Made by a program: the position numbers and the translations under genes. The notes under the pieces are model-generated. The model saw only the letters and a program-made list of their open reading frames with translations, did not search any database and had not been told where the DNA came from. From NCBI GenBank assembly GCA_900319795.1, contig ONPU01000003.1, positions 1-64,000 on the forward strand: a stretch of 64,000 bases of DNA, given 5' to 3'. The stretch is from an uncultured Eubacteriales bacterium (GTDB taxonomy: Bacteria; Bacillota; Clostridia; Lachnospirales; Lachnospiraceae). This document shows positions 84-44,065 of this stretch, in pieces. Each line of letters opens with the position of its first letter. Within the stretch, counting starts at the first letter, position 1.

Positions 84-134
84 ATGCTTGTCTTTTAAAA
101 GTGTATGCAGTTTTGAGGGTATATCCAAAAGCTT

Positions 135-163
135 AAGAGTCCTGATGGGCTCTTATTTTTTTT
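135..163 (+). terminator. Intrinsic terminator of the rRNA operon
   Basis: An 8-bp stem (AAGAGTCC pairing with GGGCTCTT through one G-U pair) with a TGAT loop is followed by A and eight T residues. Its place about 50 bases after the 23S end fits an rRNA operon terminator. Confidence 0.8.
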
Positions 164-331: not shown

Positions 332-3300
332 ATGGAACAAAACGGATTAAAGAAGCATTTGTCACCTGCGGCTGTATGGGCATTTTCAATCGGCACCAGC
401 ATCGGGTGGGGGTCTCTGGTTGTAACGGCGAACACCTATCTCGCGCAGGCGGGACCTGCGGGAACGATCCTCGGACTTCTTGTCGGAGCATTGCTAATGC
501 TGGTCATCAGCCGGAATTTCGCCTATCTGATGGGCCGTTATCCCGAAGCGGGCGGCGCCTACGCTTACTGCCGCGAAACATTCGGCTATGATACGGCATT
601 TCTGGCGGCATGGTTTCTCGCGATGACCTATTTCGCTGTTTTATGGGCGAATCTCACTTCACTTCCGCTGTATTCGAGAATCTTCCTGGGCGGTGTCTTC
701 CGTCTGGGAAAACTCTATACGATTTTCGGATATGAAGTGTATTTAGGAGAAGCGCTGCTTTCCATGGCGGCACTTGTTCTTGTCGGATTTCTGCTTGTGA
801 AATTCCAGAATACCGGCGTCCTGATGATGATCGTCATGGCTGTCATTTTCTGTGTGGGTATCACTTTCACATTTGTTGTCGGATTTTTCGGATCGGGATT
901 TCATTTTGAGCCGGCTTTTGTACCGGATAGCCGGGCCATTTCCCAGATCATCAATATCGCCGTGATTTCACCATGGGCGTTTATCGGATTTGAAAATATC
1001 TCACATCTGACCGAGGAATATAACTTCGAGAAGAAGGGGATTCTCAGAGTCCTTCTTGTCTCCGTCTTTATGACGGTACTGCTCTATATTTTCGTGACGC
1101 TTCTTTCCGTTACGGCCTATCCGGCACAGTATGACAACTGGCTTTCATATATAAATGATCTCAATAATCTGAGCGGAATCGAAGCTCTGCCGGCATTTTA
1201 CGCGGCTTATCACTATCTCGGGAACTTCGGCGTTGCCATTCTGATGCTTTCGCTGCTTTCACTTGTGATCACGAGTCTCATCGGAAATATGACGGCCTTA
1301 AGCAGATTGTTCTATGCCCTGGCAAGGGATCGTGTGATTCCGGCGCGCTTTTCACATGTCAATTCCGAAAATGCTCCGGATAAGGCGATCTGGCTTGTTG
1401 TGGCGATCTCCTTCTTTATTCCGCTCCTCGGACGTACGGCGATTGGATGGATTGTGGACGTCACGACGATCGGCGCCACTTTGATTTACGGTCTTGTTTC
1501 GGCGGCCGCGCTGAAGATGGCAAAGGAACTGGATAACAAAACGGAACGGATCACCGGTTCCATCGGACTTTGGGGCATGATTGCTTTCGGTGTTTATGTG
1601 ATGCTCCCGAACCTGGTGACCAAGGGGTCCTTCGCTCCGGAGACCTTTTTCCTATTCATCATCTGGACCGTGCTGGGATTCTTTTTCTTCAGGGCTATTC
1701 TGCAGGCAGATAAGGAAAGGCGTTTCGGATCTTCTATTGCTGTGTGGATTGCGCTTCTTGCGCTTGTGCTTCTCATTTCCCTGATCTGGATGCGTCAGTC
1801 GATGATCAATACCAATGAGAAGATGGCCTCAAGCATCCGGCAGTACTATGAGGAAACGCAGGAATCCGGCTCTGAAAAGCTCGACGATCAGGAATTTGTC
1901 CAGGAGCAGATGGCTGTTCAAAGGTCGGAAGATACACGTACTATGGTGATGGCGATCTGCATGTTCAGTTTCGCGATCGTGATCATGCTTACGAATCATT
2001 CCTATATGAACAGGCGTGCCAAAGAGCATGAGATGCTGGCGAACATCGACCCGATGACCGGCGTCAAGAGCAAACACGCATACCTCAACAGCGAGAAAGA
2101 GTTTAACGAATCCATCGCTGAGGGCAAGGCCAGAGAGTTCGCGGTTGTGGTCTGCGACGTGAACGGCCTTAAGAAAATCAACGATACACTCGGCCATAAA
2201 GCAGGTGATGAATATATTCGCGAAGCCTGCCAGATGATCTGCAAAATATTCATGCACAGTCCTGTGTACAGAGTCGGAGGGGATGAGTTTGTCGCTATCT
2301 TAAGCGGCAGCGATTACGTGATCCGGAAGGAACTGATGCTGACTCTGCATGACCGCTCCGTCGATCACATCAACGCGGGCGGCGCTGTCGTTTCCGGAGG
2401 GTGTTCCGATTTCCGACGCGGAGAGGACATGAATTTCCACGATGTCTTTGAACGCGCGGACGGCCTCATGTATAAAGAAAAACAGCTTCTGAAGGGACTT
2501 GGAGCCGTGACCCGTTCGGACGCTGAAGAAGAGGCTCCGGCTCCGCAGCCGGCTGAGGAAGAGCAGAAGATTATCAATATCAGAAGAAATATCCTCATCG
2601 TAGAGGATGAAATGATCAACCAGATCATGCTCGGCAAGGCTCTTGAAGATCAATATGACGTCATCTATGCCTCCGATGGTATGGAAGCACTGGAGAGCAT
2701 GAAGATCTACAGGGACAAGCTGGCATTGGTCCTCCTCGATCTGCAGATGCCCAATATGAGCGGTATGGAAGTTCTGCAGCATATGCGGAATGACAAGAAT
2801 ATCAAATCCATTCCGGTAATCGTTCTTACGGCTGATCAGAATGCCGAGGTGGAATGTCTGAAAATGGGCGCCATGGACTTCATTCCGAAGCCCTATCCCG
2901 CATGGGAAATCATTCACGCCCGTGTCGACAAATGCATCGAGCTTTCCGAAAACAGGGATTTGATCAATCAGACGGAGAGAGACCATCTGACAAAGCTCTT
3001 CAACTATGACTATTTCCTTCGCTATGTGAACCTCTTCGATGAGCATTATCACGACAGAGAAATGGACGCGATGGTCATGGACCTGAATCATTTCCATCTG
3101 CTGAATGAACGTTACGGAAAACCGTATGGCGACAGCGTGCTGGAGCGCATCGGTGAAAGTCTCCGCCATATAGCGCGTGAGGTCGGCGGCGTAGGCTGCC
3201 GGAGAACGAAGGATACATTCCTTCTCTACTGCCCGCACAGAGAGGACTACGAACAGATTCTGACAAAGGCCGTCTCCGGACTTGATGAGGATGAAGTGAA

Positions 3301-4270
3301 TGGCAACCGTGTAAGGCTGCGCCTCGGCGTCTATTCGAAAGTGGATAAGACGCTCGACATCGAACGGCGCTTCGACTACGCCAAAGTGGCGGCCGACTCG
3401 GTGCGGAACAGCTATCTTCAGGCTGTCGGAGTCTACGACTCGGAGATGCATGAGAAGGAACTCTACCGCGCAAGGCTCGTTGAAGACTTCCATACCAGCA
3501 TTGAAAATGAAGACTTCGAGGTGTATTTCCAGCCGAAGTACGATATTCGGCCCGAGGTGCCTGTCCTGGCAAGCGCCGAAGCTCTGGTGCGCTGGAATCA
3601 CCCGGAACTGGGCCTCATCTCCCCGGGTGTCTTTATCCCGCTTCTGGAGAACAACGGCCTCATCCTGGAACTGGACGAGTATGTCTGGCGCCATACGGCG
3701 GCACAGATCCATCAGTGGAAAGAACGCTTCGGTTTCTCGATTCCGGTGTCGGTCAATGTCTCGCGTATTGACATGCTGACGCCGAACCTCAAGGACATCT
3801 TTACGGATATCCTGGACACGTACGGCCTTACAACCGCGGATCTGGTCCTTGAAATCACGGAATCGGCCTATACGGGAGACGCGGATCAGGTGATTTCCGT
3901 CGCAAGGGAACTTCGGGGCATGAATGCCGGATTCCGCATTGAAATGGATGACTTCGGAACCGGATACTCTTCGCTCGGCATGCTTACACATCTGCCGATC
4001 GATGCCCTGAAGCTGGATATGAGCTTCGTACGGAGCGCGTTTGGCGAAATCCGGGATTTCAAGATGATCGAACTCATCCTGGACATTGCCAAATATCTGA
4101 ACGTACCGGTCGTGGCGGAAGGCGTCGAGACCGAAGAACAGTACCGGGTACTGAAGGAGATGGGATGCGACCTCATTCAGGGGTATTATTTCTCAAAACC
4201 GGTACCGCCGGAGCAGTTTGACCGCTTCATGTCCGAAGCGTCCATTGCCCGCAAAAAAGCTGAAAAATAA
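332..4270 (+). CDS. Amino-acid permease-GGDEF-REC-GGDEF(degenerate)-EAL fusion protein
   Basis: A 1312-residue membrane protein joining a transporter to c-di-GMP machinery. Residues ~1-480 are an APC-superfamily amino-acid permease (GTSIGWGS in the first helix, WAFIGFE in the sixth). One more helix (~470-495), a ~45-residue charged extracytoplasmic loop and another helix (~540-560) lead into the cytosol. GGDEF domain 1 has an intact GGDEF at 649-653 but no RxxD inhibition site (FMHS occupies it). A receiver domain follows (~750-870) with phospho-acceptor Asp803 in LLDLQMPN. A second GGDEF domain has TKDTF at 959-963 and should be inactive. The C-terminal EAL domain keeps EAL at 1083-1085, DDFGTGYSS and the AEGVE motif. 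It could therefore both make and degrade c-di-GMP. The permease may transport or only sense substrate. Start chosen for GTGAGG upstream; tex follows after 19 bases. Confidence 0.9.
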   Translation: MEQNGLKKHLSPAAVWAFSIGTSIGWGSLVVTANTYLAQAGPAGTILGLLVGALLMLVISRNFAYLMGRYPEAGGAYAYCRETFGYDTAFLAAWFLAMTYFAVLWANLTSLPLYSRIFLGGVFRLGKLYTIFGYEVYLGEALLSMAALVLVGFLLVKFQNTGVLMMIVMAVIFCVGITFTFVVGFFGSGFHFEPAFVPDSRAISQIINIAVISPWAFIGFENISHLTEEYNFEKKGILRVLLVSVFMTVLLYIFVTLLSVTAYPAQYDNWLSYINDLNNLSGIEALPAFYAAYHYLGNFGVAILMLSLLSLVITSLIGNMTALSRLFYALARDRVIPARFSHVNSENAPDKAIWLVVAISFFIPLLGRTAIGWIVDVTTIGATLIYGLVSAAALKMAKELDNKTERITGSIGLWGMIAFGVYVMLPNLVTKGSFAPETFFLFIIWTVLGFFFFRAILQADKERRFGSSIAVWIALLALVLLISLIWMRQSMINTNEKMASSIRQYYEETQESGSEKLDDQEFVQEQMAVQRSEDTRTMVMAICMFSFAIVIMLTNHSYMNRRAKEHEMLANIDPMTGVKSKHAYLNSEKEFNESIAEGKAREFAVVVCDVNGLKKINDTLGHKAGDEYIREACQMICKIFMHSPVYRVGGDEFVAILSGSDYVIRKELMLTLHDRSVDHINAGGAVVSGGCSDFRRGEDMNFHDVFERADGLMYKEKQLLKGLGAVTRSDAEEEAPAPQPAEEEQKIINIRRNILIVEDEMINQIMLGKALEDQYDVIYASDGMEALESMKIYRDKLALVLLDLQMPNMSGMEVLQHMRNDKNIKSIPVIVLTADQNAEVECLKMGAMDFIPKPYPAWEIIHARVDKCIELSENRDLINQTERDHLTKLFNYDYFLRYVNLFDEHYHDREMDAMVMDLNHFHLLNERYGKPYGDSVLERIGESLRHIAREVGGVGCRRTKDTFLLYCPHREDYEQILTKAVSGLDEDEVNGNRVRLRLGVYSKVDKTLDIERRFDYAKVAADSVRNSYLQAVGVYDSEMHEKELYRARLVEDFHTSIENEDFEVYFQPKYDIRPEVPVLASAEALVRWNHPELGLISPGVFIPLLENNGLILELDEYVWRHTAAQIHQWKERFGFSIPVSVNVSRIDMLTPNLKDIFTDILDTYGLTTADLVLEITESAYTGDADQVISVARELRGMNAGFRIEMDDFGTGYSSLGMLTHLPIDALKLDMSFVRSAFGEIRDFKMIELILDIAKYLNVPVVAEGVETEEQYRVLKEMGCDLIQGYYFSKPVPPEQFDRFMSEASIARKKAEK

Positions 4271-4289: not shown

Positions 4290-6443
4290 ATGGATATATC
4301 CCGCATCATCGCGGATGAGCTGGAAATAGAGAAATGGCAGACGGATGCCGTCATCGAACTGATCGACGAAGGCAATACCATTCCCTTCATTGCCCGCTAC
4401 AGGAAAGAGAAGCACGGAACCCTCAATGACGAACAGCTCCGGAAACTGGAGGAACGTCTCAATTACCTCCGGGGACTGGAAGAGCGCAAAGCGGCTGTTT
4501 TAAAGTCCATTGAGGAGCAGGGGAAGCTCACGGACGAGCTGAAAGCGCAGATTGAGAACGCGCAGACTCTCGTGGCTGTCGAGGATCTCTACCGTCCTTA
4601 CAAACAGAAGAGGCGTACCAGAGCCATGATCGCGAAGGAAAAGGGCCTGGAGCTGCTGGCGGCGATGATCCTGAAACAGGACGCGAAGGAGCCGCTTGAA
4701 AAGCTGGCGGAAACATTCATCAGCGAAGAAAAAGGGGTCGCGAATGCGGAAGAGGCGCTCGCAGGCGCATCGGATATCATTGCCGAATTCATTTCCGACC
4801 AGGCGGAACTTCGAACCTGGATCCGGAACAGGACGCGCGGCTACGGAATCATCACTGCCGAAAAGAAGGGCGCTGACGAGGCGGGTACCTACGCGAATTA
4901 CTATGAGTTTACCAGTCCCGTCGACAAGATGACCGGTTTCCGTACGCTGGCGCTCAACCGCGGTGAAAAGGAAAAGCAACTGACCGTCCGTCTGGAGGCT
5001 CCTGAGGAGGATATCATCAAGTCTCTTTCAAGACGCATCATCCGGAGGCAGAATCCCTATACGACGCCGTTTTTGGAAAATGCGATCACCGACAGTTATC
5101 GCCGCCTGATCGCTCCCTCCATTGAAAATGAAATCCGCGCCGAACTCACCGAAGCCGCCGAAGACGGCGCCATTACGGTATTCGGTAAAAACCTGACGCA
5201 GTATCTCATGCAGCCGCCGATCGTCGGCGAGACCGTACTCGGCTGGGATCCGGCTTTCCGTACCGGCTGCAAGCTGGCGGTTGTGGATCCGACTGGGAAG
5301 GTGCTCGATACGGCAGTGATTTACCCCACGCAGCCGACAAATGAGGCGAAAAAAGCCGAGGCGAAGAGGGTGCTTAAGGGGTTCATTTCCAAATATCATG
5401 TGAGCCTTATTTCGGTAGGAAACGGGACGGCTTCACGCGAATCGGAGCAGTTTATCGTGGATTTCCTGAAGGAAATCCCGGAGAAGGTCTTCTATGTGAT
5501 TACCAATGAGGCGGGTGCTTCCGTGTATTCAGCCAGTAAACTGGCAACAGAGGAATTCCCGAATTTCGACGTCGGGCAGCGCAGCGCGGTCTCGATCGCG
5601 CGCCGCGTGCAGGATCCGCTTGCGGAGCTTGTGAAGATCGACCCCAAGGCGATCGGCGTGGGCCAGTATCAGCACGATATGAATCAGAAGAAACTCGGTG
5701 AAGCGCTGACCGCAGTCGTGGAAGACTGCGTGAACGGCGTCGGCGTGGACCTCAATACCGCATCGGCCGCCCTCCTGACCTATGTGTCCGGAGTCTCCAA
5801 AACCCTTGCGGGAAATATTGTCTCCTACCGTGAGGAACACGGCCTTTTCAGCACGAGAAAGGAGCTTCTGAAGGTTCCGAAGCTCGGACCGAAGGCATTT
5901 GAGCAGTGCGCGGGATTCTTACGAATCCGCGGAGGCGCGGATCCGTTTGACAATACGTCCGTACACCCGGAATCCTATGCCGCGGCGGAACAGCTTCTCG
6001 AGAAGACCGGCCTTACAAAGAACGCCTTAAAGGACGGTCCGTGCCGCGTCATAGTCAGGAATATGAAAGCGATGGCGGACGAACTTGGAATCGGCGAACC
6101 GACGCTTCGGGATATCATCCGCGAGCTGTCACAGCCGGGCAGGGATCCGCGTGAGGATCTGCCGCAGCCGGTACTTCGAAGCGACGTCCTCGAGATGAAG
6201 GACCTGAAAGAGGGCATGGTGCTGAAGGGAACCGTGAGGAACATCGTGGATTTCGGGGCATTTGTGGATATCGGTGTGCATCAGGACGGACTGGTACACA
6301 TTTCCAGAATGTCTAAAAAGAAGTTCGTGAAGCATCCGCTCGATGTCGTCAGCATCGGAGACGTGGTCGAGGTGAAGGTCGTCAGCGTGGATGAGAAGAG
6401 GAAGAGGATCGGACTTTCGATGATTCTCGGAAATTCCGATTGA
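4290..6443 (+). CDS. tex: Tex-family transcription accessory / RNA-binding protein
   Basis: Tex is a conserved nucleic-acid-binding protein linked to transcription and, in several bacteria, stress tolerance or toxin expression. The 717 residues are full length. The N-terminal helical region contains IPFIARYRKE and LYRPYKQKRRTRA, hallmark Tex stretches. A YqgF/RNase H-like fold lies around 320-450, helix-hairpin-helix segments around 490-560, and a C-terminal S1 RNA-binding domain around 640-710 (GMVLKGTVRNIVDFGAFVDIG). A GAAAGAAGG ribosome site precedes the ATG. Its stop codon overlaps the -35 box of the tRNA-Trp promoter, so the tRNA is transcribed independently. Confidence 0.95.
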   Translation: MDISRIIADELEIEKWQTDAVIELIDEGNTIPFIARYRKEKHGTLNDEQLRKLEERLNYLRGLEERKAAVLKSIEEQGKLTDELKAQIENAQTLVAVEDLYRPYKQKRRTRAMIAKEKGLELLAAMILKQDAKEPLEKLAETFISEEKGVANAEEALAGASDIIAEFISDQAELRTWIRNRTRGYGIITAEKKGADEAGTYANYYEFTSPVDKMTGFRTLALNRGEKEKQLTVRLEAPEEDIIKSLSRRIIRRQNPYTTPFLENAITDSYRRLIAPSIENEIRAELTEAAEDGAITVFGKNLTQYLMQPPIVGETVLGWDPAFRTGCKLAVVDPTGKVLDTAVIYPTQPTNEAKKAEAKRVLKGFISKYHVSLISVGNGTASRESEQFIVDFLKEIPEKVFYVITNEAGASVYSASKLATEEFPNFDVGQRSAVSIARRVQDPLAELVKIDPKAIGVGQYQHDMNQKKLGEALTAVVEDCVNGVGVDLNTASAALLTYVSGVSKTLAGNIVSYREEHGLFSTRKELLKVPKLGPKAFEQCAGFLRIRGGADPFDNTSVHPESYAAAEQLLEKTGLTKNALKDGPCRVIVRNMKAMADELGIGEPTLRDIIRELSQPGRDPREDLPQPVLRSDVLEMKDLKEGMVLKGTVRNIVDFGAFVDIGVHQDGLVHISRMSKKKFVKHPLDVVSIGDVVEVKVVSVDEKRKRIGLSMILGNSD

Positions 6444-39879: not shown

Positions 39880-40992
39880 ATGGGACTGTGGGAGAGAGTA
39901 CGCGAGGCTTTATTTCCGGCCCGCCTGAGTGAGTATAAGGCAGACTTCGAGAGAGAGAATTATCGCTCTCTTAAGTTTGTTTTGTTTGCGGGCATTGTCG
40001 TTTCCGGCTGTTCTCTTCTGGTCCAGCTTGTCTTACATACCACTATCGAGCGGGGCAATCTGATCGGCTTCCTCGGCATTCTGGTTTTCTCTTTAGCAAT
40101 GTTCCTTTCCTATAATCATGAAGTGAGAAAAAATCCCACACTGGCGCTTTATATCTGGGTTACGGCGCTTCTTTTCTGCTCGGTCATTCTCGGAACGAGT
40201 TTTTCACCGAATACGGAGTCATTTGTCTTTATCATCCTTCTTCTGGTTCTCCCTTTGCTGATTTCCGACGCATGGGGGCATATCATTATCTATGTCGGCC
40301 TTAGCGCGACGTTCTTTCTTGTGATGTCCTTCATCACCAAGGATCGCGCGATCTTTGAAAAAGATCTGCTTCATACGATCATAGTCTCGCTGATCACCAT
40401 CATACTGAGCCGAAGGTTTGTATCGGACAATCTGATCAAGCTCGAGACCAGCAACAAGGCTGAGACAAAAGCGGAGCATGACGGCCTGACCGGAATCTAT
40501 AACCGCCGCGGCGGAGAGCAGATGATCCGGGAGTATCTCGCCAACGGCGTTACCGGAAGCTTCCTGATCATGGACGTGGATGATTTCAAGTTCGTCAATG
40601 ACCACTACGGCCATGCGATGGGCGACGAAGTGCTGAAGAAGGTCGCGTTGACGCTGAGCAGGCATTTTCGTGAAAGCGACGTCGTCATGCGCATGGGCGG
40701 CGACGAATTTATTGTATACGCGATCGGAATGGCGGATATCCGCCACGTCGAGAACAAGCTCATTTCCCTGTGTGAGGATATGCGGAAGATCGTGCTTGAC
40801 GAGAAGACGGGCACCCATATCAGTGTCAGTATCGGCTGTGCCGTCAATCTTGGTTCCTACACGGATTATGACGCCCTTTCCGCGGCAGCGGACAAGCTCC
40901 TCTATCTTACCAAGACCGGGGGGAAAGACGGCTACCGCTGTTCCGACGCCGATCAGAAGAAGACAACGGCGTCTCCGAAGGAGGATTTGTGA
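39880..40992 (+). CDS. Membrane-bound GGDEF diguanylate cyclase
   Basis: A 370-residue protein predicted to make c-di-GMP. About six transmembrane helices occupy residues ~33-185, without a large extracytoplasmic sensor. The GGDEF domain has DGLTGIYNRRGG, DVDDFKFVNDHYGHAMGDE and an intact GGDEF at 273-277. Five residues upstream, RESD (264-267) is an intact RxxD inhibition site, so product feedback is expected. The start is uncertain: ATG at 39880 has GAGGGG 16 bases upstream, and an in-frame TTG at 39847 lacks a ribosome site. It is the second c-di-GMP protein of the window. Confidence 0.9.
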   Translation: MGLWERVREALFPARLSEYKADFERENYRSLKFVLFAGIVVSGCSLLVQLVLHTTIERGNLIGFLGILVFSLAMFLSYNHEVRKNPTLALYIWVTALLFCSVILGTSFSPNTESFVFIILLLVLPLLISDAWGHIIIYVGLSATFFLVMSFITKDRAIFEKDLLHTIIVSLITIILSRRFVSDNLIKLETSNKAETKAEHDGLTGIYNRRGGEQMIREYLANGVTGSFLIMDVDDFKFVNDHYGHAMGDEVLKKVALTLSRHFRESDVVMRMGGDEFIVYAIGMADIRHVENKLISLCEDMRKIVLDEKTGTHISVSIGCAVNLGSYTDYDALSAAADKLLYLTKTGGKDGYRCSDADQKKTTASPKEDL

Positions 40993-43889: not shown

Positions 43890-43912
43890 AGGTAACGAAC
43901 TGAACAGCAGGA

Positions 43913-44038
43913 ATCTTCGGGGCAGGGTGCAATTCCCTACCGGCGGTGACAGTCCGCGAGCCGAATTTCCGTTTTGGAAAAGAGGGCACGAACCGGTGAA
44001 ATTCCGGTACCGACAGTAAAGTCTGGATGAGAGAAGAT
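43913..44038 (+). promoter_or_regulatory. FMN riboswitch (RFN element)
   Basis: The P1 stem ATCTTC / GAAGAT encloses the conserved blocks GGGGCAGGGTG, CCCTACCGGCGGTGA, AGTCCGCGAGC, GGTGAAATTCCGGTACCGACAGT and GTCTGGATGAGAGAAGAT. Each matches the RFN consensus. A terminator at 44066 completes an FMN-sensitive off switch for ribU. Confidence 0.97.
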
Positions 44039-44065
44039 CGGATATTCTTATAAAGAAGATCACGG

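Follow-up and report, generated by a model that had tools for sequence, protein, structure and literature searches.

A permease-derived putative nutrient sensor joined to both arms of c-di-GMP turnover in an uncultured Lachnospiraceae bacterium and its relatives

Introduction

This work concerns a fusion gene of an uncultured Eubacteriales bacterium of the family Lachnospiraceae, located within the first 64,000 nucleotides of contig ONPU01000003.1 (assembly GCA_900319795.1), a stretch that is referred to below as the window. In one frame, the gene encodes an APC permease, a pair of additional membrane helices, an intact GGDEF domain, a receiver (REC), a degenerate GGDEF domain (dGGDEF) and an EAL domain. 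Judged from its sequence, the product is rather probably a permease-derived sensor with a push-pull output on cyclic diguanylate (c-di-GMP) in a single chain. The importer-shaped part is probably a nutrient sensor, since the same permease recurs in many gut bacteria with several kinds of output. Direct support comes from the anatomy of the protein, the conservation of its motifs, the single clade formed by the fused permeases in a quick tree, the swapping of output modules, and the kinship of the C-terminal half with genes found next to related permeases.

Domain architecture and motif conservation

A preliminary description of this DNA, made from the letters alone, had recognized an APC permease followed by GGDEF, receiver and EAL domains in an uninterrupted frame of 1312 codons. 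The frame is as described, and a Pfam search recovered all of these domains above gathering scores (AA_permease_2 at residues 13-447, GGDEF in two stretches, Response_reg at 754-862 and EAL at 1052-1290; coordinates in the window are collected in Table 1). The AA_permease_2 match over the permease core reaches 102.5 bits, with a gathering score of 27. Only AA_permease families matched the permease part, in which Pfam found no SLC5/SSF transporter domain, and neither MASE nor other membrane-sensor models matched the window protein (Pfam at 0.001).

Family-averaged hydropathy gives 12 helices in the APC part and two more at residues 469-487 and 535-553, 14 in total, a count obtained after two overlapping pairs among the 16 segments found at a threshold of 1.0 had been merged by eye. 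The two extra helices between transporter and enzymes were thus correctly noted before, as was the loop between them, which would lie outside the cell because an even number of helices precedes it and the cytoplasmic enzymes come after. This hairpin (TMlink), taken from the window protein and from two relatives in which the permease is joined to a kinase, gave only Pfam matches under the cut-off, and no known linker domain was found.

The enzyme motifs were counted in 83 rows with the first GGDEF domain and 33 rows with the full architecture, one identical protein (L013 and L041) being counted twice. The first GGDEF motif is intact in 82 of the 83 rows, the exception being a short copy in L062 whose frame is broken at the motif, and its metal-binding Asp609 is present in all 83. 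An RxxD inhibition site occurs in none of the 83 rows; the window protein has FMHS at residues 640-643, in agreement with the earlier description of an intact domain without such a site. In the receiver, Asp803, at the acceptor position as previously stated, and Lys853 are present in 33/33 rows, while the acidic pair and the T/S position are each found in 32/33. The second GGDEF domain is degenerate in every row with the full architecture (33/33), and every one of them retains the metal Asp, which would allow GTP binding; GTP-activated EAL proteins exist. The EAL and DDFG motifs and the Lys and Glu positions, which we take to have catalytic roles, are complete in 32/33 rows, L091 being cut by a contig end.

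Conservation of the permease was assessed in an alignment of the window protein with 68 of the 76 available locus rows (69 proteins; the aligned rows are 46-64% identical to the window protein), the measure being the mean share of the commonest residue. By this measure, the APC permease is as conserved as the GGDEF domain (0.665 for both). The lowest value, 0.34, belongs to the outside loop, and the length of residues 488-545, a stretch that takes in the beginning of helix 14, ranges from 47 to 59 residues. The permease is therefore a likelier ligand site than the loop, and the loop, the most variable part, is disfavoured as the main sensor. In the first and sixth transmembrane helices (TM1 and TM6), the window protein carries the motifs G21xxxG25-W26-G27 and P214-WAFIGFE221, which we take to be meaningful for the APC fold; G21, G25, W26 and G27, together with W215, A216, F217, G219, F220 and E221, are invariant in 69/69 proteins. 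W105 and N107 are likewise kept in 82/82 rows of the cyclase and HD-GYP types. So uniform a pocket points to a single class of ligand for the cyclase types; to judge by its aromatic residues, an amine would fit no less than an amino acid. The closest relatives of solved structure are CAT-type transporters, with weak similarity.

Distribution among gut bacteria

Relatives were collected by a scan of GTDB species genomes, and the best 80 of 592 were kept; all counts out of 80 rest on these. The loci were chosen by similarity to a window-led query, half of it cyclase types, so their proportions are no census of outputs. The main genes comprise 30 with the full architecture, two with all parts present in an interrupted frame (L054 and L095), 45 short permease-GGDEF genes, one with an HD-GYP output and two of the kinase type. 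Among the 30, one lies on a 3.86-Mb contig of strain AC2029, one (L091) is the gene cut by a contig end, and one (L092) has its first ~94 residues in a separate frame. Two further kin genomes, L012 and L013, also carry the full architecture.

By record title, 69 of the 80 loci belong to Bacillota, 7 to Actinomycetota, 2 to Spirochaetota, and 1 each to Thermodesulfobacteriota and Chloroflexota; most titles denote metagenome-assembled genomes (MAGs) or uncultured organisms, so the last two phyla need caution (the contig of L105 has a length of 4,986 bases). Ruminant gut samples are named in many of the titles. A survey across Lachnospiraceae had been suggested; the architecture does recur, but the family proved too narrow a frame, as the titles also name Actinomycetota, Spirochaetota and others. 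Within the family, 27 of 200 genomes match the permease plus hairpin at 1e-20. Of the 20 matches at 1e-60 or better, 18 are fused (in 13/200 genomes) and 2 stand alone, the fused ones being 3 full, 1 short APC-GGDEF, 1 PAS-GGDEF and 13 of the kinase type. Within the phylum, a profile match at 1e-40 occurs in 18/398 genomes and a fused form in 4/398, all of the kinase type except the window's own; L113 was assigned to the kinase type by eye, phmmer giving no HK match. A plasmid search at 1e-40 gave 743 matching records, in none of which a single place covers >80% of the protein.

The genome of the window also holds a kinase-type relative, a protein of 1117 residues on contig C2 (L009:5407-8760) with the order APC-hairpin-HisKA-HATPase-REC-REC, which adjoins a REC-dGGDEF-EAL gene and a small hybrid kinase. 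A Coriobacteriaceae MAG (L053:7965-10328) has the APC part and hairpin fused to an HD-GYP domain (HD_5; HDIGK, HHE and GYP motifs), as if the same sensor had been given the presumed opposite c-di-GMP enzyme. In L062:837-14715, a hybrid kinase, a REC-dGGDEF-EAL gene, an APC-kinase, a full APC-GGDEF-REC-dGGDEF-EAL gene and the short APC-GGDEF copy with the broken frame stand in a row. A tail of ~135-149 residues follows the EAL domain in 20/32 full proteins (a set in which L013 and L041 are identical) and is lacking in the window protein; the tail at L012:4320-4745 has no Pfam match above cut-off.

Exchange of outputs and apparent joining of neighbouring genes

In a permease tree of 128 rows, 105 fused permeases form one clade with a support of 99 in the approximate likelihood ratio test (SH-aLRT), and 21 stand-alone rows fall outside it. 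Five outputs are found on this permease module, namely GGDEF, GGDEF-REC-dGGDEF-EAL, PAS-GGDEF, HD-GYP and kinase (HK-REC), and the tree requires 3 changes between kinase and cyclase types and 5 between full and short forms. The trees are quick ones with SH-aLRT as their sole support measure; stand-alone sampling is thin at 21 rows, and L121, L114, L027 and L136 have long branches. Identical rows entered the permease trees once, five open reading frames (ORFs) without an APC match were left out, and the permease ORF of L054 was too short to be included.

From the short form it is clear that permease and cyclase can occur without the C-terminal half. Of 50 permease-GGDEF genes without EAL (including PAS-GGDEF), 14 have a REC-dGGDEF-EAL gene on the same strand within 500 bases. 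In a tree of 60 C-terminal halves, in which the chosen outgroup did not form one side of a branch, the 32 fused halves and the two interrupted-frame cases form one clade (support 100). The 14 neighbouring genes lie outside this clade and inside the next larger group (98), which also includes one non-adjacent gene and one without REC, while three REC-dGGDEF-EAL genes beside APC-kinases are placed further out. Because the neighbouring genes are near kin of its C-terminal half, the window protein has the appearance of a union of two adjacent partner genes, and this favours the view that the two work together.

Kinase genes were found no more than 500 bases away from 6/50 permease-GGDEF genes and from 6/32 full genes (raw counts). 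Ten hybrid kinases from such loci were searched with Pfam (two of L035 and one each of L057, L077, L045, L046, L037, L074, L076 and L075, one of the L035 genes and that of L075 being one gene further off); six contain PAS folds, and in the other four no input model reached its cut-off.

Proposed mechanism and alternative explanations

In the proposed mechanism, the APC core would bind a small nutrient, probably an amino acid or a related amine, in its retained pocket. The conformational state of the core or its transport cycle would then be passed through helices 13 and 14 to the juxtamembrane helix, and would determine either the dimerisation of the intact GGDEF cyclase or its activity. The REC-dGGDEF-EAL half would be a captured response-regulator phosphodiesterase, with a separate kinase phosphorylating Asp803 and so tuning c-di-GMP breakdown, possibly together with GTP on the degenerate GGDEF domain. 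The ligand class, the direction of the signal, the enzyme activities and the kinase partner are what we infer here.

This is close to the transceptor of the preliminary description, which was thought to couple amino-acid availability to the c-di-GMP level with phosphorylation as a second input. A transporter-type input to c-di-GMP turnover with such a second input remains the best supported part of that view, because one permease clade carries five outputs and because some relatives encode near kin of the C-terminal half as separate receiver genes in the immediate neighbourhood. Its amino-acid ligand has fared less well, as NCBIfam scores are far below the listed cut-offs for named transporters (for example, 87 versus 556.8).

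The lack of a ligand assignment from these family models is the first of several points that weigh against the proposed sensor. With TMlink as the query, phmmer detected the hairpin in 12 kinase-type permease ORFs out of 19 and not in the other 7; the coupler therefore varies more than the permease does. Adjacent REC-dGGDEF-EAL genes are missing within 500 bases of 27/50 permease-GGDEF genes that have room for one, with 9 cases undecided. No kinase lies within 500 bases of 26/32 full genes in the locus DNA examined, and none was noticed next to the window gene, where the contig start limits the view upstream. A PilZ effector is found in 8 of 13 genomes (the window's own and 12 kin), but in neither the 82%-complete genome of the window nor 4 of the 12 kin genomes. 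Finally, removal of the SLC5 domain does not stop CbrA from activating its target promoter, according to the available excerpts of PMC7096432, and a fused transporter therefore need not be the main sensor. No weight is attached to riboswitch searches for c-di-GMP-I (own genome) and c-di-GMP-II (13 genomes), which gave 0 matches with equally silent controls.

A serious possibility, if a somewhat doubtful one, is that the APC domain is a receptor only, having lost transport and become a pure ligand sensor like Ks-Amt5; it is compatible with the proposed sensor but would rule out transport. Fused rows do differ from stand-alone kin at pocket-side positions: residues 224-225 are mostly S/T-H/N (mostly S-H) in fused rows and P-Q in 13/13 stand-alone rows, and W105 is replaced by P in 10 of the 13 stand-alone permeases compared. 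The coupling lysine that we take to be typical of ApcT and GkApcT also looks absent, helix 5 (residues 165-185) being nearly without charge, yet human CAT1 and CAT4, which are transporters, seem to lack that lysine too when aligned. The core motifs of TM1 and TM6 are, moreover, fully retained. Known fusions offer a precedent for either outcome, since transport was lost in Ks-Amt5, an ammonium transporter domain fused to a histidine kinase (PMC5764959, in the part available), and is kept by CbrA (excerpts of the preprint PMC13022988).

The same anatomy and the well conserved permease core would also fit signalling from the inside out, with c-di-GMP turnover or REC phosphorylation gating the permease and the cytoplasmic part regulating uptake. 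We consider this improbable: cyclase, HD-GYP and histidine kinase outputs on one permease clade are what is seen with sensor modules, the motifs of both enzymes are conserved, and deletion of the kinase domains of CbrA leaves its transport unaffected (in the accessible part of PMC7096432). That the permease does no more than hold the c-di-GMP enzymes at the membrane or close to a transport site, with no signal passing through the linker, would suit the variable loop of the hairpin and the failure to detect this hairpin in some kinase-type kin. Such a tether is quite unlikely, however, as it needs neither a pocket that is invariant across rows 46-64% identical to the window protein nor a single inherited permease clade with many outputs. 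That two genes were brought together near codon 560 by a frameshift or a chimeric assembly would be compatible with a window that begins at an rRNA end, a usual contig break, and with interrupted frames in 3/80 loci (L054, L092 and L095). This reading is practically untenable and already refuted by independent records, which exclude chance as well: the junction lies inside the frame in L012, in L013 and in 30/80 loci, one of them on the 3.86-Mb contig, and the architecture is not unique to this genome.

Beyond the permease-derived push-pull sensor itself, a wider proposal is put forward as one that may well hold, though we stop short of calling it probable. APC sensors with one conserved pocket would constitute a hitherto undescribed class that arose once, is spread across gut anaerobes of several phyla and drives five outputs; the window protein would be its single-chain push-pull switch, in which synthesis would answer to a nutrient and breakdown to a kinase, and which might respond to the flux of transport and not to mere binding. 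The permease-derived sensor would also place c-di-GMP in gut anaerobes under nutrient control; record titles assign many of these organisms to ruminants. The compact APC-TMlink-GGDEF form of ~740 residues combines a single pocket and a single linker with an enzyme that is easy to assay, and natural versions with other enzymes exist.

Genomic context and additional observations

The features of the fusion gene and its immediate flanks are listed in Table 1. Four neighbours in the window (Tex-like, NUDIX-like, OppB-like and OppA-like by eye) were searched for in the ORFs of L009-L111 at 1e-20, and a single OppB-like ORF was found (L106); the window neighbourhood therefore gives no hint of the ligand.

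Table 1. Positions of the fusion gene, its parts and its flanking features in the window.
Feature	Position	Strand	Basis or remark
Fusion gene	332-4270	+	ATG start; single uninterrupted frame of 1312 codons; 1312 residues
23S rRNA, 3' end at contig start	1-85	+	Rfam RF02541, 50.5 bits vs 50; upstream neighbour, outside the protein
Terminator-like hairpin with T-run	134-155	+	Between rRNA and fusion gene; consensus scan only
APC permease core (residues 1-460)	332-1711	+	12 predicted helices; Pfam AA_permease_2/AA_permease, hydropathy, conservation
TMlink (residues 461-565)	1712-2026	+	Helices 13 and 14, variable outside loop; hydropathy, phmmer
GGDEF domain 1	2039-2485	+	Intact (GGDEF 649-653), without inhibition site; Pfam, motif alignment
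Receiver (REC)	2591-2917	+	Asp803 acceptor position; Pfam, motif alignment
GGDEF domain 2	2954-3436	+	Degenerate (TKDTF 959-963), Asp917 kept; borders approximate
EAL phosphodiesterase domain	3485-4201	+	Motif residues intact; Pfam, motif alignment
Next gene (717 residues)	4290-6443	+	Tex-like by eye; starts 20 bases past the fusion stop; outside the system

Elsewhere in the window, an FMN riboswitch (112.9 bits) lies at 43909-44042, and a further GGDEF-like match (31% identity) lies at 40444-40983, in an open frame of 383 residues. Contig C18 of the same genome (L011:2207-5101) encodes a protein of 964 residues with a C-terminal degenerate GGDEF and EAL and, by eye, tandem solute-binding domains in the N-terminal half, followed by a GGDEF protein of 541 residues; it is another possible nutrient-to-c-di-GMP input. 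Two proteins of another APC lineage (L030:2533-5373, 947 residues; L031:7032-9728, 899 residues) are fused to an iron-containing alcohol dehydrogenase (Fe-ADH and its C-terminal domain, Pfam above cut-off) and represent a possible transporter-enzyme channel.

Comparison with known systems

Among the matches listed in searches of open-licence literature, no paper was found that describes a fusion of an APC permease with GGDEF or EAL, and a search combining diguanylate cyclase, rumen, Lachnospiraceae and c-di-GMP yielded, by title, only AI-2 signalling. The kind of protein is nevertheless already known, from SLC5-STAC proteins with kinase or cyclase outputs and from Ks-Amt5. The novel elements are an APC core, a hairpin as the coupler, the variety of outputs and the joining of cyclase and phosphodiesterase arms.

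MASE is one membrane module with several outputs, and the APC module resembles it and the 5TMR/S-component modules in carrying several cytoplasmic outputs, although their folds differ from its own. The S-component fold links transporters and receptors (PMC11109136, in part).

The nearest parallels are CbrA, CrbS and RpuS and the SLC5-STAC cyclases, which, like the window protein, place a whole transporter N-terminal to a signalling output; the available part of PMC7096432 speaks of versions with a kinase as well as versions with a cyclase. The transporter families involved share the LeuT fold, as stated for SSS and APC in the excerpts of PMC7918813. How a transporter fold signals is unsettled for CbrA as well: the accessible portion of PMC13022988, which also covers the SLC5-STAC/CbrA precedent, continues to describe its activating signal as elusive. 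The window protein differs from the SLC5-STAC type in having an APC transporter (AA_permease_2) and not SLC5, a coupler predicted to be a two-helix hairpin with an outside loop (no Pfam match above cut-off) rather than a cytoplasmic STAC bundle, and a chain that unites a cyclase with a receiver-phosphodiesterase. Ks-Amt5 likewise reuses a transporter fold as a sensor on a signalling enzyme, but with a trimeric Amt fold, a kinase output, ammonium as the ligand and loss of transport. Within the same permease clade, the APC-histidine kinase of the window genome has a related permease core and hairpin linker and adjoins a REC-dGGDEF-EAL gene, and differs in its HisKA-HATPase-REC-REC output.

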